Below are positions 1-17,145 of a stretch of 64,000 bases of DNA, piece by piece. The notes under the pieces are model-generated. The model worked only from the letters and a program-made list of their open reading frames with translations, did not search any database and was not told the origin of the DNA. Position numbers and translations under genes: made by a program. Source of the DNA: Phorcus lineatus (Eukaryota; Mollusca; Gastropoda; Trochida; Trochidae); the NCBI GenBank assembly GCA_921293015.1, contig OV121092.1:30449764-30513763 (forward strand), in the 5' to 3' direction. The first letter of the stretch is position 1. Each line of letters starts with the position of its first letter.

Positions 1-25
1 GCGTTATCCGTTGCGCCACACGCCC
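1..25 (-). tRNA. tRNA-Arg(ACG), unit 0 copy A, cut by window edge
   Basis: Only the 5' 25 nt of the gene (acceptor 5' strand and D-stem start) are inside the window. Confidence 0.85.
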
Positions 26-137
26 CTCTTGCTCATTATTTTTCAGAAAGGATCCTAATATCATTGAGAAGGTCGGCTCGGATCCTGGGATGACGATATG
101 AGTATTCTGATGAATGTAGCCTTCTAGAAACATCGTC

Positions 138-220
138 AGCACGGTGGCCGAGTGGTTAAGGCGTTGGACTTAAGATCCAATGGACGTATGTCCGCGTGGG
201 TTCGAACCCCACCCGTGCTA
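138..220 (+). tRNA. tRNA-Leu(TAA), unit 0
   Basis: Reference copy of the Leu gene: 83 nt, no intron. The acceptor stem AGCACGG pairs fully with CCGTGCT, and the discriminator is A. The anticodon stem TTGGA/TCCAA holds the loop CTTAAGA with anticodon TAA, which reads UUA. A long variable arm (GGAC/GTCC) marks a type II tRNA, and the T arm is GTGGG-TTCGAAC-CCCAC. The A and B boxes are intact and a T run follows 4 nt downstream. Confidence 0.97.
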
Positions 221-254
221 ATGTTTTAGTAAATGATTCAAGTTCATTTTCGGC

Positions 255-262
255 TATATAAG
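255..262 (+). promoter_or_regulatory. TATA-box match in Leu/Arg-B spacer
   Basis: TATATAAG is a full match to the Pol II TATA consensus. It lies about 35 bp past tRNA-Leu in the convergent spacer and recurs at the same place in every unit. No initiator or transcript is known, so its role is unproven. Confidence 0.25.
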
Positions 263-385
263 TGGGTTGACTAAATAAGTTTTGAGCTTAAATCTTGTCT
301 TTGATGTTCAATAATCAACATTTCCAATTATTTAAGTCGATGTTACAAGTCATGATAAATTTCTTTTTTTTGCAAAATAGTGTCA

Positions 386-458
386 CGAGCGTGCCAGGAT
401 TCGAACCTGGAATCTTCTGATCCGTAGTCAGACGCGTTATCCGTTGCGCCACACGCCC
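386..458 (-). tRNA. tRNA-Arg(ACG), unit 0 copy B
   Basis: Reference copy of the Arg gene: 73 nt. The acceptor stem GGGCGTG pairs with CACGCTC, with one G-T pair, and the discriminator is G. The anticodon arm CTGACTACGGATCAG carries anticodon ACG, whose A34 is normally edited to inosine to read CGU, CGC and CGA. The T arm is CCAGG-TTCGAAT-CCTGG. The body matches the usual eukaryotic tRNA-Arg(ACG). Confidence 0.97.
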
Positions 459-629
459 TATGGATACCCCAAGTGACAAAATAACACTTGAATTTAGGCA
501 TGGATGATAGGGGCGTTTAAGAATAGCAATATTTCATCCACTGACGGGCTAGTCTGAAAAATAGGGTTACTTTGATCCAACTCACCAGGAAATCTCACGC
601 AGTTTTTTATGAAAAGATTATAAAAGATT

Positions 630-702
630 CGAGCGTGCCAGGATTCGAACCTGGAATCTTCTGATCCGTAGTCAGACGCGTTATCCGTTGCGCCACACGC
701 CC
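630..702 (-). tRNA. tRNA-Arg(ACG), unit 1 copy A
   Basis: All 73 positions equal the array consensus. It is divergent from the Leu gene at 815. Confidence 0.97.
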
Positions 703-814
703 CTCTTGCTCATTATTTTTCAGAAAGGATCCTAATATCATTGAGAAGGTCGGCTCGGATCCTGGGATGACGATATGAGTATTCTGATGAATGTAGCCTT
801 CTAGAAACATCGTC

Positions 815-897
815 AGCACGGTGGCCGAGTGGTTAAGGCGTTGGACTTAAGATCCAATGGAAGTATGTCCGCGTGGGTTCGAACCCCACCCGTGCTA
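815..897 (+). tRNA. tRNA-Leu(TAA), unit 1
   Basis: One change from consensus: C to A at 872 in the variable arm, weakening its GGAC/GTCC stem. Confidence 0.94.
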
Positions 898-1063
898 ATG
901 TTTTAGTAAATGATTCAAGTTCATTTTCGGCTATATAAGTGGGTTGACTAAATAAGTTTTGAGCTTAAATCTTGTCTTTGATGTTCAATAATCAACATTT
1001 CCAATTATTTAAGTCGATGTTACAAGTCATGATAAATTTCTTTTTTTTTGCAAAATAGTGTCA

Positions 1064-1136
1064 CGAGCGTGCCAGGATTCGAACCTGGAATCTTCTGATC
1101 CGTAGTCAGACGCGTTATCCGTTGCGCCACACGCCC
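1064..1136 (-). tRNA. tRNA-Arg(ACG), unit 1 copy B
   Basis: Consensus sequence. Its downstream T run differs in length from the neighbouring unit. Confidence 0.97.
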
Positions 1137-1307
1137 TATGGATACCCCAAGTGACAAAATAACACTTGAATTTCGGCATGGATGATAGGGGCGTTTAAGA
1201 ATAGCAATATTTCATCCACTGACGGGCTAGTCTGAAAAATAGGGTTACTTTGATCCAACTCACCAGGAAATCTCACGCAGTTTTTTATGAAAAGATTATA
1301 AAAGATT

Positions 1308-1380
1308 CGAGCGTGCCAGGATTCGAACCTGGAATCTTCTGATCCGTAGTCAGACGCGTTATCCGTTGCGCCACACGCCC
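1308..1380 (-). tRNA. tRNA-Arg(ACG), unit 2 copy A
   Basis: Consensus at all positions. Confidence 0.97.
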
Positions 1381-1492
1381 CTCTTGCTCATTATTTTTCA
1401 GAAAGGATCCTAATATCATTGAGAAGGTCGGCTCGGATCCTGGGATGACGATATGAGTATTCTGATGAATGTAGCCTTCTAGCAACATCGTC

Positions 1493-1575
1493 AGCACGGT
1501 GGCCGAGTGGTTAAGGCGTTGGACTTAAGATCCAATGGACGTATGTCCGCGTGGGTTCGAACCCCACCCGTGCTA
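1493..1575 (+). tRNA. tRNA-Leu(TAA), unit 2
   Basis: Consensus gene; the 5' flank has one private change (ctagcaac for ctagaaac). Confidence 0.97.
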
Positions 1576-1738
1576 ATGTTTTAGTAAATGATTCAAGTTC
1601 ATTTTCGGCTATATAAGTGGGTTGACTAAATAAGTTTTGAGCTTAAATCTTGTCTTTGATGTTCAATAATCAACATTTCCAATTATTTAAGTCGATGTTA
1701 CAAGTCATGATAAATTTTTTTTTTGCAAAATAGTGTCA

Positions 1739-1791
1739 CGAGCGTGCCAGGATTCGAACCTGGAATCTTCTGATCCGTAGTCAGACGCGTT
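1739..1791 (-). pseudogene. tRNA-Arg(ACG) unit 2 copy B, 3' part, split by LINE
   Basis: This holds the 3' portion of an otherwise consensus tRNA-Arg gene: T arm, variable loop, anticodon arm and the end of the D arm. It stops where the LINE begins. The 5' portion resumes at 4,482. The two parts share the 11-bp duplication and together account for exactly 73 nt. Confidence 0.95.
1781..1791. repeat. LINE target site duplication, left copy
   Basis: TCAGACGCGTT, part of the tRNA-Arg anticodon and D stem region, is repeated at 4,482-4,492. Confidence 0.9.
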
Positions 1792-1807
1792 TTTTCTTTG
1801 ATAATGT

Positions 1808-1813
1808 TTTATT
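1808..1813 (-). promoter_or_regulatory. LINE polyadenylation signal
   Basis: AATAAA on the minus strand, about 12 bp before the start of the short A tail at the element's 3' end. Confidence 0.7.
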
Positions 1814-1915
1814 CACAGAAGTATATACATATTAAAATGAGTGGACAATATATACAATTTAAAAGTTGCGTCCATGGACATACATAATCTTAACTAGGAA
1901 ATAATCAGAATATAC

Positions 1916-2890
1916 CTAGTAAAATGGATAGTTCAGAACAATTTCATTATCATCACCTATAGTGATGATATTTAGGGGCAAAACATATTTGTTAATGAAA
2001 ACTGAAGATTGATTTTTACAGCGATAATGAAACCAGAGTAATTTAAAATGGTGTTTAACACAGTATTTGAAAAATGTGTCTAATTTGAGTTTTTTGTTTT
2101 GTAGTGAGGAAATTGATCGTCTTTTGTAAACGCACATTCGGAAGATTGCTAAAAATATATTTAAACAATCATTGTATTCACTCGTCACAGAAGAGTGAAT
2201 CCCAAACAATAGCCATGAAATTAAATCATCGAGAGAGTAACCCCTATCATGAAATATATTTGTAAATATATTTTTGAATAACATTATAGTTTCATAGAGC
2301 TCATCACAAAAAACAAACATATGAAACATATCTTCAATAGTATCCTGACACACTGGACACAAATTTGTGTCAGATTTGCCATATTTATACATTTTTTCAT
2401 TAGTAAAAACAATATTGTGACATATTCTAAAATCAAGATCCTTTTGCTGGGAAGATTTGTCATTATGAAATACGGATTTCCAAACTTGAGGCCACTTTAT
2501 GTCTAATATGTATTGTTCCCAAAAAGTAATTGAGGTTGCTTTTACAAAGTTTTTTTCAACAAAATATGCATAACAAAATTTAACATTAAGCTGATTGGAT
2601 AAAATATTACCATTGTCTGAAACAATACATACATCTTGTTGAAGTGGTTTACTAATGGTAGCATATGAACAAATGTGTTGGAACCATTCTCTTGGTAGAG
2701 ATTTGACAATAATAAAATATGCACATCGAATGTGTGAAACAGGTACATCAATATGACAGTTACGCACCATTTCTACAATGGCTGAGACCTTTAAAAATCC
2801 TGGCACAACCTCATAACAAATATTGGACAGTGTGCAAATGCCACTATCAATGAAAAAATTAAAGCACAACAACTTCTCCCTGAAACGCAC
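1916..2890 (-). pseudogene. LINE ORF2 C-terminal part with zf-RVT motif
   Basis: This continues the retrotransposon protein after a frameshift. The stretch around residues 130-195 has the tryptophans and the F-R-I-C-H-N-I pattern found before the C-terminal zinc-binding region of LINE proteins. C178, C181, H190 and C195 form a C-x2-C-x8-H-x4-C motif of the zf-RVT type. It ends about 100 bp before the polyadenylation signal. The first ~10 residues in this frame are not native: the true join to the upstream frame lies in the 2,859-2,890 overlap, so the initial Met is probably not a start. Confidence 0.88.
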
Positions 2891-4469
2891 GTGGTTGATG
2901 CATGATTTGCTCGGGATTAGTCACGAGCTCTCGTTGAGAGCACGTGACTTCATCCCACGCACGCAGAACTTCACCATAAAAGGGGTTTATCTCCTTAAGA
3001 TCACCCTCATTATAAACAATATTGAAAATATTTTCCCGGAGTCCCATATTAAGGTATTTTTGGAAAAATAACATAGCTGAATATTTCCATAATGATGTGT
3101 AATTGCAATCAAAAAGTTTCTTTACCAATTTTAAGCGAAATGAATGAACTTTGAATTTTAAACTAGGGAGAGATAAACCACCTTGTATGAAGTGTCCTAT
3201 TGTTGTTGTGCGCTTTACAAGTGCTGTTTTACCAGACCACAAAAAATTGAAAATACATGTTTCTAGGTCCTCAATAACCCAATCTGGAACGGGTAAAACA
3301 TAAACGCTATACCACAATTTTGATAGCATAAACGTATTTACAACAATTGATTTGCCCTGAAGTGTTAGCTGTCTTTGCGACCACAGACCAAGCAAAGATT
3401 TAATTTTATTTAATTTACATTTCCAGTTTTTGTTTTCACACGCTGATTTATCGGTACCCAAATGAATCCCCAAAATTTTTAGACAGTCAGATTTGACTGT
3501 TATTGGAAGATCAAATTTAGAAATACTATTATGATTTAATCTCCCCAAAGCTAACACTTCAGACTTGGATAAATTAATCTTAGCACCTGTAGCTGAGCAA
3601 TAATAATCAAAGGATGTAAAAGTGGCGATTACAGATTGCTTGTCACAAACAGTGACAGTGGCATCATCGGCATGTTGATACAATAAAGACTTATGGTGAG
3701 CATCAATAACAATTGGTTTAATATCGGTGTTAGCTTTTATAAGCTGATTGAGTGATTGGCTCACAATGACAAACAATAAACTGCTAAGTGGGTCACCCTG
3801 GCGGACCGACCTAGTAACAGGGAAGTATGGCGTTAGATGTCCGTTGATTTTGACACTGCTTTCTAAGCCTGAATATAGTATTCTAATCCATGAAATAAAA
3901 TGTTCACCAAATTTCATTTTTTCAAGAACTTTTATAATAAATGGTTGGGAAACACGATCGAAAGCCTTTTCTTGATCGATAGAGATTACATAAGCTTCCT
4001 CTAAGTCATTAGACAAATCAATTACATCTCTTAAGGAATGAATATTGTCAGCAATATCACGTCCGGGTATGCCGCAAGTTTGGTCAGAGGAGATGACAGT
4101 TTCCAGAACATGTTTCAATCGTGAAGCGAGAACTTTGGAAATTAGTTTACAATCAACATTTAAAAGTGATATAGGCCTAAAATTTTTAATGTCTCTTTTG
4201 TCTCCTCGTTTTTTGTAAAATAAACTTATAACACCTTTTTTCATTGAACGTGATAATTGCTTTTCACAAAATACATTATTTACAATATGAATAAAAATGG
4301 GTTTTAAAACATTCCAAAAATGTACATAAAATTCAACAGTGAGTCCATCATTTCCTGGACTTTTATGACGCTTCATTGCGTTAAGAGCTGAAGTAAGCTC
4401 GTCATCATTGATATTGTCATCAAGCACAATCTTATCTTCCTCTGAGAGGACGTCTTCTCCGCAATCCAC
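2859..4469 (-). pseudogene. LINE reverse transcriptase domain, 5'-truncated
   Basis: 536 codons of reverse transcriptase, RVT_1 family. Visible motifs are KSPGNDG (36-42), the NFRPISLLN block (97-105), motif A SIDQEKAFDRV (163-173), motif B RQGDPLSSLLF (223-233) and motif C HADD (266-269). Motif C normally reads Y/FADD; the His could be natural in this lineage or a mutation. The first codon is GTG and the frame stays open to the truncation at 4,481, so this is not a real start. The frame is lost at 2,859. Its product would copy element RNA at a nicked target. Confidence 0.93.
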
Positions 4470-4480
4470 TAGGTGGCGCT
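4466..4480 (+). promoter_or_regulatory. CTCF-consensus sequence at LINE 5' junction
   Basis: CCACTAGGTGGCGCT matches the CTCF core CCASYAGRKGGC at all 12 positions. It lies in the last bases of the truncated LINE, directly beside the tRNA-Arg target. It also encodes LINE residues on the other strand, so it may be coincidental. Confidence 0.3.
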
Positions 4481-4481
4481 C

Positions 4482-4512
4482 TCAGACGCGTTATCCGTTG
4501 CGCCACACGCCC
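4482..4512 (-). pseudogene. tRNA-Arg(ACG) unit 2 copy B, 5' part, split by LINE
   Basis: The 5' end of the interrupted gene: acceptor 5' strand and D arm, beginning with the right-hand target duplication (4,482-4,492). It lacks the anticodon, T arm and B box, so it should be silent. Confidence 0.95.
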
Positions 4513-4683
4513 TATGGATACCCCAAGTGACAAAATAACACTTGAATTTCGGCATGGATGATAGGGGCGTTTAAGAATAGCAATATTTCATCCACTGACG
4601 GGCTAGTCTGAAAAATAGGGTTACTTTGATCCAACTCACCAGGAAATCTCACGCAGTTTTTTATGAAAAGATTATAAAAGATT

Positions 4684-4756
4684 CGAGCGTGCCAGGATTC
4701 GAACCTGGAATCTTCTGATCCGTAGTCAGACGCGTTATCCGTTGCGCCACACGCCC
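4684..4756 (-). tRNA. tRNA-Arg(ACG), unit 3 copy A
   Basis: Consensus; first complete gene after the LINE. Confidence 0.97.
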
Positions 4757-4868
4757 CTCTTGCTCATTATTTTTCAGAAAGGATCCTAATATCATTGAGA
4801 AGGTCGGCTCGGATCCTGGGATGACGATATGAGTATTCTGATGAATGTAGCCTTCTAGAAACATCGTC

Positions 4869-4951
4869 AGCACGGTGGCCGAGTGGTTAAGGCGTTGGAC
4901 TTAAGATCCAATGGACGTATGTCCGCGTGGGTTCGAACCCCACCCGTGCTA
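4869..4951 (+). tRNA. tRNA-Leu(TAA), unit 3
   Basis: Consensus gene. Confidence 0.97.
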
Positions 4952-5118
4952 ATGTTTTAGTAAATGATTCAAGTTCATTTTCGGCTATATAAGTGGGTTG
5001 ACTAAATAAGTTTTGAGCTTAAATCTTGTCTTTGATGTTCAATAATCAACATTTCCAATTATTTAAGTCGATGTTACAAGTCATGATAAATTTCTAGTTT
5101 TTTTGCAAAATAGTGTCA

Positions 5119-5191
5119 CGAGCGTGCCAGGATTCGAACCAGGAATCTTCTGATCCGTAGTCAGACGCGTTATCCGTTGCGCCACACGCCC
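5119..5191 (-). tRNA. tRNA-Arg(ACG), unit 3 copy B, T-stem variant
   Basis: Plus-strand T to A at 5,141 turns the middle T-stem A-T pair into a T-T mismatch. The same change is in unit 7 copy B, four units away. Confidence 0.9.
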
Positions 5192-5362
5192 TATGGATAC
5201 CCCAAGTGACAAAATAACACTTGAATTTCGGCATGGATGATAGGGGCGTTTAAGAATAGCAATATTTCATCCACTGACGGGCTAGTCTGAAAAATAGGGT
5301 TACTTTGATCCAACTCACCAGGAAATCTCACGCAGTTTTTTATGAAAAGATTATAAAAGATT

Positions 5363-5435
5363 CGAGCGTGCCAGGATTCGAACCTGGAATCTTCTGATCC
5401 GTAGTCAGACGCGTTATCCGTTGCGTCACACGCCC
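5363..5435 (-). tRNA. tRNA-Arg(ACG), unit 4 copy A, D-stem variant
   Basis: G10 to A (plus position 5,426) breaks the first D-stem pair and alters the A box. This change is private to the copy. Confidence 0.88.
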
Positions 5436-5547
5436 CTCTTGCTCATTATTTTTCAGAAAGGATCCTAATATCATTGAGAAGGTCGGCTCGGATCCTGGGA
5501 TGACGATATGAGTATTCTGATGAATGTAGCCTTCTAGAAACATCGTC

Positions 5548-5630
5548 AGCACGGTGGCCGAGTGGTTAAGGCGTTGGACTTAAGATCCAATGGACGTATG
5601 TCCGCGTGGGTTCGAACCCCACCCGTGCTA
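5548..5630 (+). tRNA. tRNA-Leu(TAA), unit 4
   Basis: Consensus gene. Confidence 0.97.
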
Positions 5631-5796
5631 ATGTTTTAGTAAATGATTCAAGTTCATTTTCGGCTATATAAGTGGGTTGACTAAATAAGTTTTGAGCTTA
5701 AATCTTGTCTTTGATGTTCAATAATCAACATTTCCAATTATTTAAGTCGATGTTACAAGTCATGATAAAAATTATTTTTTTTGCAAAATAGTGTCA

Positions 5797-5869
5797 CGAG
5801 CGTGCCAGGATTCGAACCTGGAATCTTCTGATCCGTAGTCAGACGCGTTATCCGTTGCGCCACACGCCC
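5797..5869 (-). tRNA. tRNA-Arg(ACG), unit 4 copy B
   Basis: Consensus gene. The spacer before it has the 'aaaattattttt' type of T run. Confidence 0.97.
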
Positions 5870-6040
5870 TATGGATACCCCAAGTGACAAAATAACACTT
5901 GAATTTCGGCATGGATGATAGGGGCGTTTAAGAATAGCAATATTTCATCCACTGACGGGCTAGTCTGAAAAATAGGGTTACTTTGATCCAACTCACCAGG
6001 AAATCTCACACAGCTTTTTATGAAAAGATTATAAAAGATT

Positions 6041-6113
6041 CGAGCGTGCCAGGATTCGAACCTGGAATCTTCTGATCCGTAGTCAGACGCGTTATCCGTT
6101 GCGCCACACGCCC
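6041..6113 (-). tRNA. tRNA-Arg(ACG), unit 5 copy A
   Basis: Consensus gene. Its 3' flank carries 'cacacagctttt', shared only with unit 9. Confidence 0.97.
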
Positions 6114-6225
6114 CTCTTGCTCATTATTTTTCAGAAAGGATCCTAATATCATTGAGAAGGTCGGCTCGGATCCTGGGATGACGATATGAGTATTCTGATG
6201 AATGTAGCCTTCTAGAAACATCGTC

Positions 6226-6308
6226 AGCACGGTGGCCGAGTGGTTAAGGCGTTGGACTTAAGATCCAATGGACGTATGTCCGCGTGGGTTCGAACCCCAC
6301 CAGTGCTA
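6226..6308 (+). tRNA. tRNA-Leu(TAA), unit 5, acceptor variant
   Basis: C to A at 6,302 puts a G-A mismatch next to the inner end of the acceptor stem. Shared with unit 9. Confidence 0.9.
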
Positions 6309-6474
6309 ATGTTTTAGTAAATGATTCAAGTTCATTTTCGGCTATATAAGTGGGTTGACTAAATAAGTTTTGAGCTTAAATCTTGTCTTTGATGTTCAAT
6401 AATCAACATTTCCAATTATTTAAGTCGATGTTACAAGTCATGATAAAAATTATTTTTTTTGCAAAATAGTGTCA

Positions 6475-6547
6475 CGAGCGTGCCAGGATTCGAACCTGGA
6501 ATCTTCTGATCCGTAGTCAGACGCGTTATCCGTTGCGCCACACGCCC
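6475..6547 (-). tRNA. tRNA-Arg(ACG), unit 5 copy B
   Basis: Consensus gene. Confidence 0.97.
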
Positions 6548-6718
6548 TATGGATACCCCAAGTGACAAAATAACACTTGAATTTCGGCATGGATGATAGG
6601 GGCGTTTAAGAATAGCAATATTTCATCCACTGACGGGCTAGTCTGAAAAATAGGGTTACTTTGATCCAACTCACCAGGAAATCTCACGCAGTTTTTTATG
6701 AAAAGATTATAAAAGATT

Positions 6719-6791
6719 CGAGCGTGCCAGGATTCGAACCTGGAATCTTCTGATCCGTAGTCAGACGCGTTATCCGTTGCGCCACACGCCC
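6719..6791 (-). tRNA. tRNA-Arg(ACG), unit 6 copy A
   Basis: Consensus gene. Confidence 0.97.
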
Positions 6792-6903
6792 CTCTTGCTC
6801 ATTATTTTTCAGAAAGGATCCTAATATCATTGAGAAGGTCGGCTCGGATCCTGGGATGACGATATGAGTATTCTGATGAATGTAGCCTTCTAGAAACATC
6901 GTC

Positions 6904-6986
6904 AGCACGGTGGCCGAGTGGTTAAGGCGTTGGACTTAAGATCCAATGGACGTATGTCCGCGTGGGTTCGAACCCCACCCGTGCTA
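6904..6986 (+). tRNA. tRNA-Leu(TAA), unit 6
   Basis: Consensus gene. Confidence 0.97.
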
Positions 6987-7153
6987 ATGTTTTAGTAAAT
7001 GATTCAAGTTCATTTTCGGCTATATAAGTGGGTTGACTAAATAAGTTTTGAGCTTAAATCTTGTCTTTGATGTTCAATAATCAACATTTCCAATTATTTA
7101 AGTCGATGTTACAAGTCATGATAAATTTCTAGTTTTTTTGCAAAATAGTGTCA

Positions 7154-7226
7154 CGAGCGTGCCAGGATTCGAACCTGGAATCTTCTGATCCGTAGTCAGA
7201 CGCGTTATCCGTTGCGCCACACGCCC
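7154..7226 (-). tRNA. tRNA-Arg(ACG), unit 6 copy B
   Basis: Consensus gene; spacer of the 'ttctagtttt' type. Confidence 0.97.
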
Positions 7227-7397
7227 TATGGATACCCCAAGTGACAAAATAACACTTGAATTTCGGCATGGATGATAGGGGCGTTTAAGAATAGCAATAT
7301 TTCATCCACTGACGGGCTAGTCTGAAAAATAGGGTTACTTTGATCCAACTCACCAGGAAATCTCACGCAGTTTTTTATGAAAAGATTATAAAAGATT

Positions 7398-7470
7398 CGA
7401 GCGTGCCAGGATTCGAACCTGGAATCTTCTGATCCGTAGTCAGACGCGTTATCCGTTGCGCCACACGCCC
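7398..7470 (-). tRNA. tRNA-Arg(ACG), unit 7 copy A
   Basis: Consensus gene. Confidence 0.97.
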
Positions 7471-7582
7471 CTCTTGCTCATTATTTTTCAGAAAGGATCC
7501 TAATATCATTGAGAAGGTCGGCTCGGATCCTGGGATGACGATATGAGTATTCTGATGAATGTAGCCTTCTAGAAACATCGTC

Positions 7583-7665
7583 AGCACGGTGGCCGAGTGG
7601 TTAAGGCGTTGGACTTAAGATCCAATGGACGTATGTCCGCGTGGGTTCGAACCCCACCCGTGCTA
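7583..7665 (+). tRNA. tRNA-Leu(TAA), unit 7
   Basis: Consensus gene. Confidence 0.97.
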
Positions 7666-7832
7666 ATGTTTTAGTAAATGATTCAAGTTCATTTTCGGCT
7701 ATATAAGTGGGTTGACTAAATAAGTTTTGAGCTTAAATCTTGTCTTTGATGTTCAATAATCAACATTTCCAATTATTTAAGTCGATGTTACAAGTCATGA
7801 TAAATTTCTAGTTTTTTTGCAAAATAGTGTCA

Positions 7833-7905
7833 CGAGCGTGCCAGGATTCGAACCAGGAATCTTCTGATCCGTAGTCAGACGCGTTATCCGTTGCGCCACA
7901 CGCCC
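7833..7905 (-). tRNA. tRNA-Arg(ACG), unit 7 copy B, T-stem variant
   Basis: Same T-T mismatch in the T stem as unit 3 copy B. Confidence 0.9.
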
Positions 7906-8076
7906 TATGGATACCCCAAGTGACAAAATAACACTTGAATTTCGGCATGGATGATAGGGGCGTTTAAGAATAGCAATATTTCATCCACTGACGGGCTAGT
8001 CTGAAAAATAGGGTTACTTTGATCCAACTCACCAGGAAATCTCACGCAGTTTTTTATGAAAAGATTATAAAAGATT

Positions 8077-8149
8077 CGAGCGTGCCAGGATTCGAACCTG
8101 GAATCTTCTGATCCGTAGTCAGACGCGTTATCCGTTGCGCCACACGCCC
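8077..8149 (-). tRNA. tRNA-Arg(ACG), unit 8 copy A
   Basis: Consensus; lacks the G10A change of its counterpart in unit 4. Confidence 0.97.
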
Positions 8150-8261
8150 CTCTTGCTCATTATTTTTCAGAAAGGATCCTAATATCATTGAGAAGGTCGG
8201 CTCGGATCCTGGGATGACGATATGAGTATTCTGATGAATGTAGCCTTCTAGAAACATCGTC

Positions 8262-8344
8262 AGCACGGTGGCCGAGTGGTTAAGGCGTTGGACTTAAGAT
8301 CCAATGGACGTATGTCCGCGTGGGTTCGAACCCCACCCGTGCTA
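8262..8344 (+). tRNA. tRNA-Leu(TAA), unit 8
   Basis: Consensus gene. Confidence 0.97.
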
Positions 8345-8510
8345 ATGTTTTAGTAAATGATTCAAGTTCATTTTCGGCTATATAAGTGGGTTGACTAAAT
8401 AAGTTTTGAGCTTAAATCTTGTCTTTGATGTTCAATAATCAACATTTCCAATTATTTAAGTCGATGTTACAAGTCATGATAAAAATTATTTTTTTTGCAA
8501 AATAGTGTCA

Positions 8511-8583
8511 CGAGCGTGCCAGGATTCGAACCTGGAATCTTCTGATCCGTAGTCAGACGCGTTATCCGTTGCGCCACACGCCC
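8511..8583 (-). tRNA. tRNA-Arg(ACG), unit 8 copy B
   Basis: Consensus gene. Confidence 0.97.
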
Positions 8584-8754
8584 TATGGATACCCCAAGTG
8601 ACAAAATAACACTTGAATTTCGGCATGGATGATAGGGGCGTTTAAGAATAGCAATATTTCATCCACTGACGGGCTAGTCTGAAAAATAGGGTTACTTTGA
8701 TCCAACTCACCAGGAAATCTCACACAGCTTTTTATGAAAAGATTATAAAAGATT

Positions 8755-8827
8755 CGAGCGTGCCAGGATTCGAACCTGGAATCTTCTGATCCGTAGTCAG
8801 ACGCGTTATCCGTTGCGCCACACGCCC
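8755..8827 (-). tRNA. tRNA-Arg(ACG), unit 9 copy A
   Basis: Consensus gene with the unit 5 type of 3' flank. Confidence 0.97.
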
Positions 8828-8939
8828 CTCTTGCTCATTATTTTTCAGAAAGGATCCTAATATCATTGAGAAGGTCGGCTCGGATCCTGGGATGACGATA
8901 TGAGTATTCTGATGAATGTAGCCTTCTAGAAACATCGTC

Positions 8940-9022
8940 AGCACGGTGGCCGAGTGGTTAAGGCGTTGGACTTAAGATCCAATGGACGTATGTCCGCGTG
9001 GGTTCGAACCCCACCAGTGCTA
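8940..9022 (+). tRNA. tRNA-Leu(TAA), unit 9, acceptor variant
   Basis: Same acceptor C to A change as unit 5, here at 9,016. Confidence 0.9.
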
Positions 9023-9188
9023 ATGTTTTAGTAAATGATTCAAGTTCATTTTCGGCTATATAAGTGGGTTGACTAAATAAGTTTTGAGCTTAAATCTTGT
9101 CTTTGATGTTCAATAATCAACATTTCCAATTATTTAAGTCGATGTTACAAGTCATGATAAAAATTATTTTTTTTGCAAAATAGTGTCA

Positions 9189-9261
9189 CGAGCGTGCCAG
9201 GATTCGAACCTGGAATCTTCTGATCCGTAGTCAGACGCGTTATCCGTTGCGCCACACGCCC
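9189..9261 (-). tRNA. tRNA-Arg(ACG), unit 9 copy B
   Basis: Consensus gene. Confidence 0.97.
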
Positions 9262-9432
9262 TATGGATACCCCAAGTGACAAAATAACACTTGAATTTCG
9301 GCATGGATGATAGGGGCGTTTAAGAATAGCAATATTTCATCCACTGACGGGCTAGTCTGAAAAATAGGGTTACTTTGATCCAACTCACCAGGAAATCTCA
9401 CGCAGTTTTTTATGAAAAGATTATAAAAGATT

Positions 9433-9505
9433 CGAGCGTGCCATTATTCGAACCTGGAATCTTCTGATCCGTAGTCAGACGCGTTATCCGTTGCGCCACA
9501 CGCCC
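9433..9505 (-). pseudogene. tRNA-Arg(ACG), unit 10 copy A, B box damaged
   Basis: Plus-strand GG to TT at 9,444-9,445 breaks two adjacent T-stem pairs and the last two bases of the B box. Folding and TFIIIC binding should both suffer. The counterpart in unit 6 is intact, so the change came after the four-unit duplication. Confidence 0.75.
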
Positions 9506-9617
9506 CTCTTGCTCATTATTTTTCAGAAAGGATCCTAATATCATTGAGAAGGTCGGCTCGGATCCTGGGATGACGATATGAGTATTCTGATGAATGTAGC
9601 CTTCTAGAAACATCGTC

Positions 9618-9700
9618 AGCACGGTGGCCGAGTGGTTAAGGCGTTGGACTTAAGATCCAATGGACGTATGTCCGCGTGGGTTCGAACCCCACCCGTGCTA
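9618..9700 (+). tRNA. tRNA-Leu(TAA), unit 10
   Basis: Consensus gene. Confidence 0.97.
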
Positions 9701-9867
9701 ATGTTTTAGTAAATGATTCAAGTTCATTTTCGGCTATATAAGTGGGTTGACTAAATAAGTTTTGAGCTTAAATCTTGTCTTTGATGTTCAATAATCAACA
9801 TTTCCAATTATTTAAGTCGATGTTACAAGTCATGATAAATTTCTAGTTTTTTTGCAAAATAGTGTCA

Positions 9868-9940
9868 CGAGCGTGCCAGGATTCGAACCTGGAATCTTCT
9901 GATCCGTAGTCAGACGCGTTATCCGTTGCGCCACACGCCC
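9868..9940 (-). tRNA. tRNA-Arg(ACG), unit 10 copy B
   Basis: Consensus gene; spacer of the 'ttctagtttt' type, as in unit 6. Confidence 0.97.
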
Positions 9941-10111
9941 TATGGATACCCCAAGTGACAAAATAACACTTGAATTTCGGCATGGATGATAGGGGCGTTT
10001 AAGAATAGCAATATTTCATCCACTGACGGGCTAGTCTGAAAAATAGGGTTACTTTGATCCAACTCACCAGGAAATCTCACGCAGTTTTTTATGAAAAGAT
10101 TATAAAAGATT

Positions 10112-10184
10112 CGAGCGTGCCAGGATTCGAACCTGGAATCTTCTGATCCGTAGTCAGACGCGTTATCCGTTGCGCCACACGCCC
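10112..10184 (-). tRNA. tRNA-Arg(ACG), unit 11 copy A
   Basis: Consensus gene. Confidence 0.97.
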
Positions 10185-10296
10185 CTCTTGCTCATTATTT
10201 TTCAGAAAGGATCCTAATATCATTGAGAAGGTCGGCTCGGATCCTGGGATGACGATATGAGTATTCTGATGAATGTAGCCTTCTAGAAACATCGTC

Positions 10297-10379
10297 AGCA
10301 CGGTGGCCGAGTGGTTAAGGCGTTGGACTTAAGATCCAATGGACGTATGTCCGCGTGGGTTCGAACCCCACCCGTGCTA
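10297..10379 (+). tRNA. tRNA-Leu(TAA), unit 11
   Basis: Consensus gene. Confidence 0.97.
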
Positions 10380-10545
10380 ATGTTTTAGTAAATGATTCAA
10401 GTTCATTTTCGGCTATATAAGTGGGTTGACTAAATAAGTTTTGAGCTTAAATCTTGTCTTTGATGTTCAATAATCAACATTTCCAATTATTTAAGTCGAT
10501 ATTACAAGTCATGATAAAAATTATTTTTTTTGCAAAATAGTGTCA

Positions 10546-10618
10546 CGAGCGTGCCAGGATTCGAACCTGGAATCTTCTGATCCGTAGTCAGACGCGTTAT
10601 CCGTTGCGCCACACGCCC
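10546..10618 (-). tRNA. tRNA-Arg(ACG), unit 11 copy B
   Basis: Consensus gene. Its 5' flank has a 1-bp deletion (tttatcc for tttgatcc) shared with unit 13. Confidence 0.97.
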
Positions 10619-10788
10619 TATGGATACCCCAAGTGACAAAATAACACTTGAATTTCGGCATGGATGATAGGGGCGTTTAAGAATAGCAATATTTCATCCA
10701 CTGACGGGCTAGTCTGAAAAATAGGGTTACTTTATCCAACTCACCAGGAAATCTCACGCAGTTTTTTATGAAAAGATTATAAAAGATT

Positions 10789-10861
10789 CGAGCGTGCCAG
10801 GATTCGAACCTGGAATCTTCTGATCCGTAGTCAGACGCGTTATCCGTTGCGCCACACGCCC
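10789..10861 (-). tRNA. tRNA-Arg(ACG), unit 12 copy A
   Basis: Consensus gene. Confidence 0.97.
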
Positions 10862-10973
10862 CTCTTGCTCATTATTTTTCAGAAAGGATCCTAATATCAT
10901 TGAGAAGGTCGGCTCGGATCCTGGGATGACGATATGAGTATTCTGATGAATGTAGCCTTCTAGAAACATCGTC

Positions 10974-11056
10974 AGCACGGTGGCCGAGTGGTTAAGGCGT
11001 TGGACTTAAGATCCAATGGACGTATGTCCGCGTGGGTTCGAACCCCACCCGTGCTA
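10974..11056 (+). tRNA. tRNA-Leu(TAA), unit 12
   Basis: Consensus gene. Confidence 0.97.
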
Positions 11057-11222
11057 ATGTTTTAGTAAATGATTCAAGTTCATTTTCGGCTATATAAGTG
11101 GGTTGACTAAATAAGTTTTGAGCTTAAATCTTGTCTTTGATGTTCAATAATCAACATTTCCAATTATTTAAGTCGATGTTACAAGTCATGATAAAAATTA
11201 TTTTTTTTGCAAAATAGTGTCA

Positions 11223-11295
11223 CGAGCGTGCCAGGATTCGAACCTGGAATCTTCTGATCCGTAGTCAGACGCGTTATCCGTTGCGCCACACGCCC
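11223..11295 (-). tRNA. tRNA-Arg(ACG), unit 12 copy B
   Basis: Consensus gene. Confidence 0.97.
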
Positions 11296-11466
11296 TATGG
11301 ATACCCCAAGTGACAAAATAACACTTGAATTTCGGCATGGATGATAGGGGCGTTTAAGAATAGCAATATTTCATCCACTGACGGGCTAGTCTGAAAAATA
11401 GGGTTACTTTGATCCAACTCACCAGGAAATCTCACGCAGTTTTTTATGAAAAGATTATAAAAGATT

Positions 11467-11539
11467 CGAGCGTGCCAGGATTCGAACCTGGAATCTTCTG
11501 ATCCGTAGTCAGACGCGTTATCCGTTGCGCCACACGCCC
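11467..11539 (-). tRNA. tRNA-Arg(ACG), unit 13 copy A
   Basis: Consensus gene. Confidence 0.97.
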
Positions 11540-11651
11540 CTCTTGCTCATTATTTTTCAGAAAGGATCCTAATATCATTGAGAAGGTCGGCTCGGATCCT
11601 GGGATGACGATATGAGTATTCTGATGAATGTAGCCTTCTAGAAACATCGTC

Positions 11652-11734
11652 AGCACGGTGGCCGAGTGGTTAAGGCGTTGGACTTAAGATCCAATGGACG
11701 TATGTCCGCGTGGGTTCGAACCCCACCCGTGCTA
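11652..11734 (+). tRNA. tRNA-Leu(TAA), unit 13
   Basis: Consensus gene. Confidence 0.97.
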
Positions 11735-11900
11735 ATGTTTTAGTAAATGATTCAAGTTCATTTTCGGCTATATAAGTGGGTTGACTAAATAAGTTTTGAG
11801 CTTAAATCTTGTCTTTGATGTTCAATAATCAACATTTCCAATTATTTAAGTCGATGTTACAAGTCATGATAAAAATTATTTTTTTTGCAAAATAGTGTCA

Positions 11901-11973
11901 CGAGCGTGCCAGGATTCGAACCTGGAATCTTCTGATCCGTAGTCAGACGCGTTATCCGTTGCGCCACACGCCC
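11901..11973 (-). tRNA. tRNA-Arg(ACG), unit 13 copy B
   Basis: Consensus gene with the same 1-bp flank deletion as unit 11. Confidence 0.97.
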
Positions 11974-12143
11974 TATGGATACCCCAAGTGACAAAATAAC
12001 ACTTGAATTTCGGCATGGATGATAGGGGCGTTTAAGAATAGCAATATTTCATCCACTGACGGGCTAGTCTGAAAAATAGGGTTACTTTATCCAACTCACC
12101 AGGAAATCTCACGCAGTTTTTTATGAAAAGATTATAAAAGATT

Positions 12144-12216
12144 CGAGCGTGCCAGGATTCGAACCTGGAATCTTCTGATCCGTAGTCAGACGCGTTATCC
12201 GTTGCGCCACACGCCC
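12144..12216 (-). tRNA. tRNA-Arg(ACG), unit 14 copy A
   Basis: Consensus gene. Confidence 0.97.
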
Positions 12217-12328
12217 CTCTTGCTCATTATTTTTCAGAAAGGATCCTAATATCATTGAGAAGGTCGGCTCGGATCCTGGGATGACGATATGAGTATTCTG
12301 ATGAATGTAGCCTTCTAGAAACATCGTC

Positions 12329-12411
12329 AGCACGGTGGCCGAGTGGTTAAGGCGTTGGACTTAAGATCCAATGGACGTATGTCCGCGTGGGTTCGAACCC
12401 CACCCGTGCTA
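12329..12411 (+). tRNA. tRNA-Leu(TAA), unit 14
   Basis: Consensus gene. Confidence 0.97.
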
Positions 12412-12577
12412 ATGTTTTAGTAAATGATTCAAGTTCATTTTCGGCTATATAAGTGGGTTGACTAAATAAGTTTTGAGCTTAAATCTTGTCTTTGATGTTC
12501 AATAATCAACATTTCCAATTATTTAAGTCGATGTTACAAGTCATGATAAAAATTATTTTTTTTGCAAAATAGTTTCA

Positions 12578-12650
12578 CGAGCGTGCCAGGATTCGAACCT
12601 GGAATCTTCTGATCCGTAGTCAGACGCGTTATCCGTTGCGCCACACGCCC
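12578..12650 (-). tRNA. tRNA-Arg(ACG), unit 14 copy B
   Basis: Consensus gene; private G to T change in the 3' flank. Confidence 0.97.
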
Positions 12651-12821
12651 TATGGATACCCCAAGTGACAAAATAACACTTGAATTTCGGCATGGATGAT
12701 AGGGGCGTTTAAGAATAGCAATATTTCATCCACTGACGGGCTAGTCTGAAAAATAGGGTTACTTTGATCCAACTCACCAGGAAATCTCACGCAGTTTTTT
12801 ATGAAAAGATTATAAAAGATT

Positions 12822-12894
12822 CGAGCGTGCCAGGATTCGAACCTGGAATCTTCTGATCCGTAGTCAGACGCGTTATCCGTTGCGCCACACGCCC
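12822..12894 (-). tRNA. tRNA-Arg(ACG), unit 15 copy A
   Basis: Consensus gene. Confidence 0.97.
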
Positions 12895-13006
12895 CTCTTG
12901 CTCATTATTTTTCAGAAAGGATCCTAATATCATTGAGAAGGTCGGCTCGGATCCTGGGATGACGATATGAGTATTCTGATGAATGTAGCCTTCTAGAAAC
13001 ATCGTC

Positions 13007-13089
13007 AGCACGGTGGCCGAGTGGTTAAGGCGTTGGACTTAAGATCCAATGGACGTATGTCCGCGTGGGTTCGAACCCCACCCGTGCTA
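13007..13089 (+). tRNA. tRNA-Leu(TAA), unit 15
   Basis: Consensus gene. Confidence 0.97.
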
Positions 13090-13254
13090 ATGTTTTAGTA
13101 AATGATTCAAGTTCATTTTCGGCTATATAAGTGGGTTGACTAAATAAGTTTTGAGCTTAAATCTTGTCTTTGATGTTCAATAATCAACATTTCCAATTAT
13201 TTAAGTCGATGTTACAAGTCATGATAAAAATTATTTTTTTGCAAAATAGTGTCA

Positions 13255-13327
13255 CGAGCGGGCCAGGATTCGAACCTGGAATCTTCTGATCCGTAGTCAG
13301 ACGCGTTATCCGTTGCGCCACACGCCC
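13255..13327 (-). tRNA. tRNA-Arg(ACG), unit 15 copy B, acceptor variant
   Basis: Plus-strand T to G at 13,261 (A67 to C) breaks the T6-A67 acceptor pair. Confidence 0.88.
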
Positions 13328-13498
13328 TATGGATACCCCAAGTGACAAAATAACACTTGAATTTCGGCATGGATGATAGGGGCGTTTAAGAATAGCAATA
13401 TTTCATCCACTGACGGGCTAGTCTGAAAAATAGGGTTACTTTGATCCAACTCACCAGGAAATCTCACGCAGTTTTTTATGAAAAGATTATAAAAGATT

Positions 13499-13571
13499 CG
13501 AGCGTGCCAGGATTCGAACCTGGAATCTTCTGATCCGTAGTCAGACGCGTTATCCGTTGCGCCACACGCCC
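13499..13571 (-). tRNA. tRNA-Arg(ACG), unit 16 copy A
   Basis: Consensus gene. Confidence 0.97.
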
Positions 13572-13683
13572 CTCTTGCTCATTATTTTTCAGAAAGGATC
13601 CTAATATCATTGAGAAGGTCGGCTCGGATCCTGGGATGACGATATGAGTATTCTGATGAATGTAGCCTTCTAGAAACATCGTC

Positions 13684-13766
13684 AGCACGGTGGCCGAGTG
13701 GTTAAGGCGTTGGACTTAAGATCCAATGGACGTATGTCCGCGTGGGTTCGAACCCCACCCGTGCTA
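13684..13766 (+). tRNA. tRNA-Leu(TAA), unit 16
   Basis: Consensus gene. Confidence 0.97.
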
Positions 13767-13931
13767 ATGTTTTAGTAAATGATTCAAGTTCATTTTCGGC
13801 TATATAAGTGGGTTGACTAAATAAGTTTTGAGCTTAAATCTTGTCTTTGATGTTCAATAATCAACATTTCCAATTATTTAAGTCGATGTTACAAGTCATG
13901 ATAAATTTCTTTTTTTTGCAAAATAGTGTCA

Positions 13932-14004
13932 CGAGCGTGCCAGGATTCGAACCTGGAATCTTCTGATCCGTAGTCAGACGCGTTATCCGTTGCGCCACAC
14001 GCCC
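13932..14004 (-). tRNA. tRNA-Arg(ACG), unit 16 copy B
   Basis: Consensus gene. From here to the right edge the spacer is the 'aatttctttt' type again. Confidence 0.97.
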
Positions 14005-14175
14005 TATGGATACCCCAAGTGACAAAATAACACTTGAATTTCGGCATGGATGATAGGGGCGTTTAAGAATAGCAATATTTCATCCACTGACGGGCTAGTC
14101 TGAAAAATAGGGTTACTTTGATCCAACTCACCAGGAAATCTCACGCAGTTTTTTATGAAAAGATTATAAAAGATT

Positions 14176-14248
14176 CGAGCGTGCCAGGATTCGAACCTGG
14201 AATCTTCTGATCCGTAGTCAGACGCGTTATCCGTTGCGCCACACGCCC
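14176..14248 (-). tRNA. tRNA-Arg(ACG), unit 17 copy A
   Basis: Consensus gene. Confidence 0.97.
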
Positions 14249-14360
14249 CTCTTGCTCATTATTTTTCAGAAAGGATCCTAATATCATTGAGAAGGTCGGC
14301 TCGGATCCTGGGATGACGATATGAGTATTCTGATGAATGTAGCCTTCTAGAAACATCGTC

Positions 14361-14443
14361 AGCACGGTGGCCGAGTGGTTAAGGCGTTGGACTTAAGATC
14401 CAATGGACGTATGTCCGCGTGGGTTCGAACCCCACCCGTGCTA
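14361..14443 (+). tRNA. tRNA-Leu(TAA), unit 17
   Basis: Consensus; last fully consensus Leu gene before the right edge. Confidence 0.97.
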
Positions 14444-14608
14444 ATGTTTTAGTAAATGATTCAAGTTCATTTTCGGCTATATAAGTGGGTTGACTAAATA
14501 AGTTTTGAGCTTAAATCTTGTCTTTGATGTTCAATAATCAACATTTCCAATTATTTAAGTCGATGTTACAAGTCATGATAAATTTCTTTTTTTTGCAAAA
14601 TAGTGTCA

Positions 14609-14681
14609 CGAGCGTGCCAGGATTCGAACCTGGAATCTTCTGATCCGTAGTCAGACGCGTTATCCGTTGCGCCACACGCCC
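14609..14681 (-). tRNA. tRNA-Arg(ACG), unit 17 copy B
   Basis: Consensus gene. Confidence 0.97.
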
Positions 14682-14852
14682 TATGGATACCCCAAGTGAC
14701 AAAATAACACTTGAATTTCGGCATGGATGATAGGGGCGTTTAAGAATAGCAATATTTCATCCACTGACGGGCTAGTCTGAAAAATAGGGTTACTTTGATC
14801 CAACTCACCAGGAAATCTCACGCAGTTTTTTATGAAAAGATTATAAAAGATT

Positions 14853-14925
14853 CGAGCGTGCCAGGATTCGAACCTGGAATCTTCTGATCCGTAGTCAGAC
14901 GCGTTATCCGTTGCGCCACACGCCC
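14853..14925 (-). tRNA. tRNA-Arg(ACG), unit 18 copy A
   Basis: Consensus gene. Confidence 0.97.
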
Positions 14926-15037
14926 CTCTTGCTCATTATTTTTCAGAAAGGATCCTAATATCATTGAGAAGGTCGGCTCGGATCCTGGGATGACGATATG
15001 AGTATTCTGATGAATGTAGCCTTCTAGAAACATCGTC

Positions 15038-15120
15038 AGCACGGTGGCCGAGTGGTTAAGGCGTTGGACTTAAGATCCAATGGACGTATGTCCACGTGGG
15101 TTCGAACCCCACCCGTGCTA
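15038..15120 (+). tRNA. tRNA-Leu(TAA), unit 18, mild variant
   Basis: G to A at 15,094 between the variable arm and T stem. It breaks no stem pair and is shared with units 19 and 20. Confidence 0.95.
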
Positions 15121-15285
15121 ATGTTTTAGTAAATGATTCAAGTTCATTTTCGGCTATATAAGTGGGTTGACTAAATAAGTTTTGAGCTTAAATCTTGTCT
15201 TTGATGTTCAATAATCAACATTTCCAATTATTTAAGTCGATGTTACAAGTCATGATAAATTTCTTTTTTTTGCAAAATAGTGTCA

Positions 15286-15358
15286 CGAGCGTGCCAGGAT
15301 TCGAACCTGGAATCTTCTGATCCGTAGTCAGACGCGTTATCCGTTGCGCCACACGCCC
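15286..15358 (-). tRNA. tRNA-Arg(ACG), unit 18 copy B
   Basis: Consensus gene. Confidence 0.97.
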
Positions 15359-15529
15359 TATGGATACCCCAAGTGACAAAATAACACTTGAATTTCGGCA
15401 TGGATGATAGGGGCGTTTAAGAATAGCAATATTTCATCCACTGACGGGCTAGTCTGAAAAATAGGGTTACTTTGATCCAACTCACCAGGAAATCTCACGC
15501 AGTTTTTTATGAAAAGATTATAAAAGATT

Positions 15530-15602
15530 CGAGCGTGCCAGGATTCGAACCTGGAATCTTCTGATCCGTAGTCAGACGCGTTATCCGTTGCGCCACACGC
15601 CC
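15530..15602 (-). tRNA. tRNA-Arg(ACG), unit 19 copy A
   Basis: Consensus gene. Confidence 0.97.
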
Positions 15603-15714
15603 CTCTTGCTCATTATTTTTCAGAAAGGATCCTAATATCATCGAGAAGGTCGGCTCGGATCCTGGGATGACGATATGAGTATTCTGATGAATGTAGCCTT
15701 CTAGAAACATCGTC

Positions 15715-15797
15715 AGCACGGTGGCCGAGTGGTTAAGGCGTTGGACTTAAGATCCAATGGACGTATGTCCACGTGGGTTAGAACCCCACCCGTGCTA
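15715..15797 (+). pseudogene. tRNA-Leu(TAA), unit 19, B box C56A
   Basis: This copy carries the unit 18 change plus C to A at 15,780, so the T loop reads TTAGAAC for TTCGAAC. C56 is nearly invariant: it pairs with G19 in the folded tRNA and is central to TFIIIC binding of the B box. The gene is probably poorly transcribed. Confidence 0.75.
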
Positions 15798-15962
15798 ATG
15801 TTTTAGTAAATGATTCAAGTTCATTTTCGGCTATATAAGTGGGTTGACTAAATAAGTTTTGAGCTTAAATCTTGTCTTTGATGTTCAATAATCAACATTT
15901 CCAATTATTTAAGTCGATGTTACAAGTCATGATAAATTTCTTTTTTTTGCAAAATAGTGTCA

Positions 15963-16035
15963 CGAGCGTGCCAGGATTCGAACCTGGAATCTTCTGATCC
16001 GTAGTCAGACGCGTTATCCGTTGCGCCACACGCCC
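15963..16035 (-). tRNA. tRNA-Arg(ACG), unit 19 copy B
   Basis: Consensus gene. Confidence 0.97.
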
Positions 16036-16206
16036 TATGGATACCCCAAGTGACAAAATAACACTTGAATTTCGGCATGGATGATAGGGGCGTTTAAGAA
16101 TAGCAATATTTCATCCACTGACGGGCTAGTCTGAAAAATAGGGTTACTTTGATCCAACTCACCAGGAAATCTCACGCAGTTTTTTATGAAAAGATTATAA
16201 AAGATT

Positions 16207-16279
16207 CGAGCGTGCCAGGATTCGAACCTGGAATCTTCTGATCCGTAGTCAGACGCGTTATCCGTTGCGCCACACGCCC
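16207..16279 (-). tRNA. tRNA-Arg(ACG), unit 20 copy A
   Basis: Consensus gene. Confidence 0.97.
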
Positions 16280-16391
16280 CTCTTGCTCATTATTTTTCAG
16301 AAAGGATCCTAATATCATCGAGAAGGTCGGCTCGGATCCTGGGATGACGATATGAGTATTCTGATGAATGTAGCCTTCTAGAAACATCGTC

Positions 16392-16474
16392 AGCACGGTG
16401 GCCGAGTGGTTAAGGCGTTGGACTTAAGATCCAATGGACGTATGTCCACGTGGGTTAGAACCCCACCCGTGCTA
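16392..16474 (+). pseudogene. tRNA-Leu(TAA), unit 20, B box C56A
   Basis: Same two changes as unit 19, at 16,448 and 16,457; the two units are recent duplicates. Confidence 0.75.
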
Positions 16475-16639
16475 ATGTTTTAGTAAATGATTCAAGTTCA
16501 TTTTCGGCTATATAAGTGGGTTGACTAAATAAGTTTTGAGCTTAAATCTTGTCTTTGATGTTCAATAATCAACATTTCCAATTATTTAAGTCGATGTTAC
16601 AAGTCATGATAAATTTCTTTTTTTTGCAAAATAGTGTCA

Positions 16640-16712
16640 CGAGCGTGCCAGGATTCGAACCTGGAATCTTCTGATCCGTAGTCAGACGCGTTATCCGTTG
16701 CGCCACACGCCC
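16640..16712 (-). tRNA. tRNA-Arg(ACG), unit 20 copy B
   Basis: Consensus gene. Confidence 0.97.
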
Positions 16713-17099: not shown

Positions 17100-17145
17100 A
17101 GTACATTCAAATTTTGCACCAGGAAATCTCATGCAGTTTATTGTT

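Follow-up and report, generated by a model that had tools for sequence, protein, structure and literature searches.

Described mobile elements that insert in or near tRNA genes

The long interspersed nuclear elements (LINEs) that are linked to tRNA genes in the literature consulted are either reported for one tRNA species each or insert outside the gene. The planarian LIN families LIN15_SM and LIN25_SM and the element NeSL-1_TV are specific for tRNA-Arg, tRNA-Glu and tRNA-Pro genes, with one tRNA species reported for each, and are placed close to NeSL/R5, a group with a restriction-like endonuclease (PMC4640811). TRE5-A of Dictyostelium uses tRNA genes as a class, reaching 83% of tRNA gene positions; it inserts ~47 base pairs (bp) upstream of the gene, needs a functional B box and has an ORF1 protein that interacts with TBP in vitro, and the RNA polymerase III (Pol III) machinery is implicated (PMC5391098). 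Zebrafish Keno (U2), Mutsu (5S) and Dewa (tRNA-Leu spacer) are listed with a single multicopy small-RNA target each (PMC3706591). Dada DNA transposons, which encode a DDE transposase, occupy fixed sites inside tRNA genes, either nucleotides (nt) 8-13 or the region of the anticodon; some enter genes of more than one tRNA species, and their groups are named for the tRNA that they mainly target (PMC8869645). Here we describe a LINE family with a copy inside a tRNA-Arg(ACG) gene in a 64,000-nt stretch of contig OV121092.1 of the gastropod Phorcus lineatus (positions 30,449,764 to 30,513,763; hereafter the window).

Our results make it very probable that the copy in the window, dead and internally deleted, belongs to an L1-superfamily LINE family that targets many kinds of tRNA gene at one structural position. 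Like LIN15_SM, LIN25_SM and NeSL-1_TV, the family consists of non-long-terminal-repeat (non-LTR) retrotransposons with tRNA genes as target, but its endonuclease is of the apurinic/apyrimidinic endonuclease (APE) type instead of the restriction-like type, its reverse transcriptase (RT) is L1-like, and its targets have 25 anticodons instead of being confined to tRNA-Arg. It uses tRNA genes as a class, as TRE5-A does, but interrupts the gene itself, mostly at nt 21/22, where TRE5-A keeps a fixed distance upstream. With Keno, Mutsu and Dewa it shares multicopy small-RNA targets, but it is not bound to one of them, and it differs from Dewa in entering the tRNA gene and not the spacer. A fixed position inside tRNA genes is shared with Dada, at a different site and by a different enzyme. 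Our literature search found no LINE that inserts inside many kinds of tRNA gene in the source portions consulted, with Repbase outside the search, so that an earlier or database-only precedent may exist. Site-specific LINEs are usually bound to one gene sequence, and the class-wide TRE5-A stays upstream of its genes; in the present family a target that spans tRNA genes as a class is combined with intragenic placement precise almost to the nucleotide.

Insertion sites across the genome

The survey covered one genome, the window's own 958-Mb assembly of 74 contigs. A first search gave 52 matches, of which 38 were LINE copies (the window's included) and 14 were tRNA sequence only; 20 of the other 37 copies were taken with long flanks and 17 as short 3' stretches. 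A protein search (82 matches) led to 32 more family copies and to one distant LINE, and the 3' side of each was read. DNA searches with the 3' end of the window's subfamily and with a second subfamily (40 matches each) added eight copies and located the missing 3' ends of L019 and L027, which are broken by other sequence, and of L077, which had been cut by the stretch taken. In total 78 copies were inspected, L078 and L097 perhaps being two pieces of one. The searches score the best candidates only, and the copy counts are lower bounds.

The 3' end was readable in 70 of the 78 copies, and every one of these lay within a tRNA gene, with the element in the orientation of the gene. The distal tRNA half began at nt 21-23, just past the A box, in 65 of them (59 by script plus the hand-corrected L069 among the first 65 copies, and all five later copies), where nt 27 is taken as the first of the anticodon stem and numbering runs back from it. 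The poly(A) end of most copies adjoined nt 22, or nt 23 where nt 22 is an A as well; this point immediately follows the A box and D loop. Fifteen of the first 65 copies were joined at nt 23; twelve of these have an A at nt 22 that is inseparable from the tail, and three, all in Pro genes, have no A there. As a control, a B-box motif was found at its expected place in 45 of 54 script-parsed flanks, compared with 0.61% of 20,000 random pieces of the window outside its tRNA array.

The genes hit represent 25 anticodons and 15 amino acids: Arg (ACG, TCG, TCT), Trp (CCA), Phe (GAA), initiator Met (CAT), Glu (TTC, CTC), Leu (CAA, TAA), Pro (AGG, CGG), Thr (CGT, TGT, AGT), Ala (CGC, TGC, AGC), Gln (TTG), Ile (GAT, TAT), His (GTG), Val (TAC), Gly (GCC) and Asn (GTT). 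Many of these identities were confirmed by intact neighbouring genes (ARAGORN, Rfam) and the rest were read from the anticodon loops. L069 was assigned by hand to Thr-TGT with a joint at nt 22, and the decayed, Thr-like L076 gave CCT by script; neither adds to the 25. One copy, L020, starts within the element's 3' region, lacks ~390 nt at its 3' end and has no poly(A) tail, yet sits at the usual site of a Pro(CGG) gene, which suggests that the normal RNA end is not required for site choice.

The initial annotation, made from the window alone, had proposed an element that targets tRNA-Arg, and had named a chance hit as the alternative. That the family is target-specific is borne out by the junctions described above, but a restriction to Arg is not, as only 7 of the 70 insertions are in Arg genes of any kind. 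Under that proposal most copies would join TCAGACGCGTT of tRNA-Arg(ACG), and only three do (the window copy, L051 and L053), all of them in the window's array. Recognition of this Arg(ACG) sequence would account for these three copies, and Arg-TCG and Trp genes have the related TCAGACGC in common. However, 67 of the 70 copies lie outside Arg(ACG) genes and 63 outside any Arg gene, the sequences at the joints in Glu (CCCGAAATCC), Gly (CAGGCGAGTATTC) and initiator Met (CAGCACGC) genes bear no resemblance to it, and nearly identical copies occupy different tRNAs, all of which makes an Arg-specific LINE highly improbable. An untargeted LINE that struck the array by chance would be compatible with the window taken alone, since Arg genes fill 146 of the 678 bp of an array unit (21.5%) and 2 of the 29 nick-like TT/A sites per unit fall within them. 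Chance would then have had to place all 70 readable copies in tRNA genes and 65 of them within three nucleotides, and we consider its probability negligible; copies at unrelated sites with no tRNA sequence at the joint, which the annotation had said would refute its proposal, numbered none of 70.

L011, in an initiator Met gene, had the same identity, 99.7%, with each of L009 (Trp; over 5,276 bp), L010 (Phe) and L012 (Glu; over 4,622 bp), and an identity of 99.3% with L014 (Arg-TCG); copies in these five kinds of gene were 99.1-99.7% identical overall. Because copies more than 99% identical occupy different tRNA genes, a single element uses many targets. A subfamily with a 58%-identical RT protein behaved in the same way: its copies, which share 99.1-99.6% of their sequence over ~1.1 kb, occupy genes for Gln, Leu, Asn and Arg-TCG. 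The distant LINE (L050, 36% identical), a single copy whose boundary was placed by eye, appears to end in 17 A followed by unrelated DNA.

At the other side of the element, 21 5' ends were read (the window's included), each of which reaches or nearly reaches the terminus. The 5' half of the same tRNA gene stood directly at the element's 5' end in 13 of them (the window copy, L009, L011, L014, L016, L025, L026, L028, L082, L084, L086, L089 and L092). Target duplications of ~8-14 bp were found at 10 of the 21, one with a mismatch (L089) and two with filler bases (L082, L092). These ends bear on the idea that the tRNA pieces are chimeras, made by template switching onto tRNAs during reverse transcription, and not genomic targets. 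Chimeras of LINEs and small RNAs are reported in general (PMC13174262). A chimera does not explain why the array spacer continues past the tRNA 3' half, nor the 5' halves and duplications at the opposite end, and an origin of this kind is hardly credible. Among 13 stretches taken for 5' ends, L083 and L088 were all N, L090 stopped short of the end and L091 was left out of the analysis. In two Pro-gene copies (L022, L023) the 5' end was joined to a tRNA-Phe half piece, a T-run and other DNA, which suggests exchange between interrupted tRNA loci.

Exchange could also inflate the copy number, if one or a few insertions had spread through tRNA arrays by unequal exchange and so exaggerated the targeting. 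Apparent duplicates are indeed present (the window copy and L051; L031 and L032; L055 and L056; L057 and L064-L066; L058, L067, L068 and L099). Still, the same joint was found in genes for 25 anticodons, in ~21 clusters on 10 contigs, and array spread as the source of the pattern is very unlikely. RNA chimerism, tRNA-Arg specificity, chance insertion and pure array spread were all rejected on the evidence, as was 5' truncation.

Several observations weigh against uniform targeting of tRNA genes at one position and should be set beside the results above. Since many copies look like array duplicates, the number of independent insertions is bounded from below by the 25 anticodons. Seven copies had N at the 3' end (L021, L033, L042-L045, L062) and L078 showed no 3' end. 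Six copies were outside the 21 5' ends because they are short of the terminus or rearranged there (L015, L017, L018, L019, L020, L024), and among the 21 themselves two (L027, L085) repeated a far longer stretch of the gene, and six had no 5' half of the same tRNA (L010, L022, L023, L080, which is partly masked, L081 and L087). Five of the 70 3' joints fell at other points of the D arm (His L034 and L094, Gln L046, Glu L095, Leu L096), and the insertion site is therefore not absolute. Among the copies inspected there was no insertion in Ser, Lys, Asp, Tyr, Cys or elongator-Met genes, and an apparent tRNA-Tyr is present within the arrays of hit Leu(CAA) genes, yet no Tyr insertion was seen. The result therefore holds for many kinds of tRNA gene and does not extend to all of them. 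Both insertions in tRNA-His are several nt off the usual site, yet within the D arm.

The interrupted gene and its array in the window

In the window the LINE copy occupies 1792..4481 on the minus strand and divides a tRNA-Arg(ACG) gene of the same strand in two. The distal (3') half, with the left copy of the target duplication, is at 1739..1791, and the proximal (5') half, with the A box and the right copy, is at 4482..4512; both parts equal an intact gene of the array in every letter. The duplication TCAGACGCGTT is at 1781..1791 and again at 4482..4492, corresponds to tRNA nt 21-31 and is exactly 11 bp, as the flanking bases on neither side are shared. Along the tRNA, its 5' half comes first, then the element from its 5' to its 3' end, and last the tRNA 3' half, from which it follows that element and gene have the same orientation. 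The element ends in an AATAAA signal (1808-1813, minus strand) and a short poly(A) tail of 4 A past the target's own AA (1792..1795, minus strand), both read from the sequence.

The insert contains two pieces of open reading frame (ORF) 2 on the minus strand. The RT piece (2859..4469) carries an RVT_1 domain at ~3459-4199 (Pfam, E 4e-32), and the C-terminal piece (1916..2890), out of frame with it, carries a zf-RVT-like motif at ~2300-2491 (E 1.7e-5, under the Pfam cut-off). The frame is broken near 2887-2893, where the window copy has 17 bp fewer than its closest relatives. At 2,690 nt it is also far below the full length of ~5,276 bp. Other copies part from it at 4456, and the remaining 25 nt (4457..4481, minus strand; sense GAGCGCCACCTAGTGG...) are those in which, identically or as a close variant, full-length copies terminate. 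Because its last 25 nt are the full-length 5' terminus, the copy has both ends and has lost ~2.6 kb internally; it is not 5'-truncated. Thus the initial annotation was right that a LINE splits a tRNA-Arg gene and that 11 bp are duplicated on each side, and it was mistaken in calling the element 5'-truncated. The first 16 nt of the element (sense GAGCGCCACCTAGTGG) are the same in three of four 5' ends compared (L009, L081, L084, L087), and near-identical in the fourth, L081. Their antisense, CCACTAGGTGGCGC, would fit the CTCF core motif and might be a promoter or insulator site.

The array that received the insertion extends over 1..17100, its right edge being approximate, as delimited by ARAGORN, unit spacing and Rfam. 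One unit of ~678 bp has two tRNA-Arg(ACG) genes on the minus strand and one tRNA-Leu(TAA) gene on the plus strand, and units are mostly spaced by 677-679 bp. ARAGORN called 62 tRNA genes from 1 to ~17 kb, 41 Arg and 21 Leu, and Rfam gave 62 tRNA matches; the ~17-kb array of the initial annotation is confirmed. About 5.4 kb upstream in the same array, L051/L052 agrees with the window copy in its deletion joint and at both ends. This is evidence that it arose by array duplication of an interrupted unit. L051/L052 apparently lacks the 17-bp loss.

Family anatomy and target recognition

Members of the main subfamily measure 5,276 bp when full-length, those of another 5,329 bp. Two natural full-length copies (L010 and L026) have CCHC knuckles in an ORF1 of up to 378 and 418 amino acids (aa) if the first possible start is used; their ORF2, open over 1,290 and 1,298 aa, encodes an endonuclease of the APE type, RT and a zf-RVT-like motif that is again under the Pfam cut-off. 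The endonuclease (Exo_endo_phos, E 1.9e-9 in L010 and 5.7e-7 in L026) is N-terminal to the RT and is lost in the window copy; L1 endonuclease structures match aa 20-247 of L026. The A-tail varies in length among copies, and the poly(A) end and target duplications are as in target-primed insertion.

Tx1-group LINEs, among them Keno, Mutsu and Dewa, belong to the L1 superfamily and have an APE endonuclease. Judged against solved structures only, the RT piece of the window is closest to human L1 ORF2p (1e-55, compared with 1e-13 for R2), and the full ORF2 of L026 gives 2e-79 for human L1 ORF2p and ~1e-13 for R2, with L1 ORF2p nearest over aa 20-882. These comparisons support placing the family in the L1 superfamily (L1 and Tx1) of non-LTR retrotransposons, and the earlier label L1/Tx1-type therefore stands at the level of the superfamily. 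The endonuclease gave bit scores of 67.6 with 'LTX' (PDB 2v0r), 56.7 with 'LR1' and 55.3 with the L1 endonuclease. The LTX chimera presumably carries the Tx1 hairpin loop, and the scores are a weak hint of possible Tx1 kinship. Target-specific insertion, which is expected of the Tx1 clade, was seen in all readable copies. Searches for RT relatives gave 9 stretches fitting a pattern among viral contigs and 27 among genome contigs, none confirmed in either, and the junction pattern was absent from the viral contigs. With tblastn there was no match in phages and one 27.6% match in plasmids, on an Alicyclobacillus plasmid, which we guess to be a bacterial RT.

How one position is found in so many genes can be approached from the targets. 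When 11 intact target genes were aligned at the joint, an A was found 8 bases before it in 9 of 11, a G 4 before in 9 of 11, an A directly before in 9 of 11 and a G directly after in 10 of 11, bases that are general tRNA gene features, in a comparison that covers hit genes only. Further into the anticodon stem most positions were variable and two kept pyrimidines. The Leu(CAA) and Ile(TAT) genes seem to bear introns (judged from sequence and from long Rfam matches), and their joint was at nt 22-23 despite a different distance between A and B box. Because the joint is constant in these genes and the anticodon-stem sequence varies between targets, the position is probably set from the A-box side.

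We consider it likely that this L1-superfamily lineage treats tRNA genes as one target class, a single enzyme reading a shared feature of the A box and D arm and inserting at nt 21/22 in genes for at least 25 isoacceptors, a habit kept down to 58% protein identity between subfamilies. In such a process the APE-type ORF2 endonuclease would nick the antisense strand, either at nt 20/21 or at nt 21/22; the 3' end so released would prime reverse transcription from the A-tail, and the cut in the sense strand would lie 8-14 nt beyond, in the region of the anticodon stem. Recognition would be anchored on the A-box side (nt 8-21), either by direct reading of the DNA or by contact with Pol III factors bound to the A box. 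Exchange within tRNA arrays would then duplicate interrupted units, for which L051/L052 is the one demonstrated case, and may remove them.

The same insertion pattern could be produced by tethering to TFIIIC or TFIIIB, with no reading of the A box by the endonuclease, and we hold this to be a real possibility, if a somewhat less than even one. It would fit the many tRNA genes hit while the local sequence varies, and it has been proposed for TRE5-A, with its B-box requirement and TBP interaction (PMC5391098). However, TRE5-A inserts at a distance upstream, whereas the joint here is mostly one structural position inside the gene, which suggests local DNA reading, and the apparently intron-bearing genes are hit at the same nucleotide. 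This family allows a test of whether precision comes from Pol III factors or from an endonuclease that reads the internal promoter common to tRNA genes. An enzyme that recognises A-box-type sites could help to explain target change in LINEs, and the family is also relevant to the way in which tandem arrays of tRNA genes withstand the repeated destruction of units.

Elsewhere in the window no second copy of the element was found. Ten of the longer open stretches outside it gave no Pfam match over the cut-off, the best being a weak pentapeptide-repeat match (E 4e-4). At the end of the array (16950-17130) a tRNA-Leu gene passes into unrelated AT-rich DNA, and further along the window there are several minisatellite arrays and one long CT-rich repeat (38883-41549, 46923-47416, 54331-54592 and 57694-58147).

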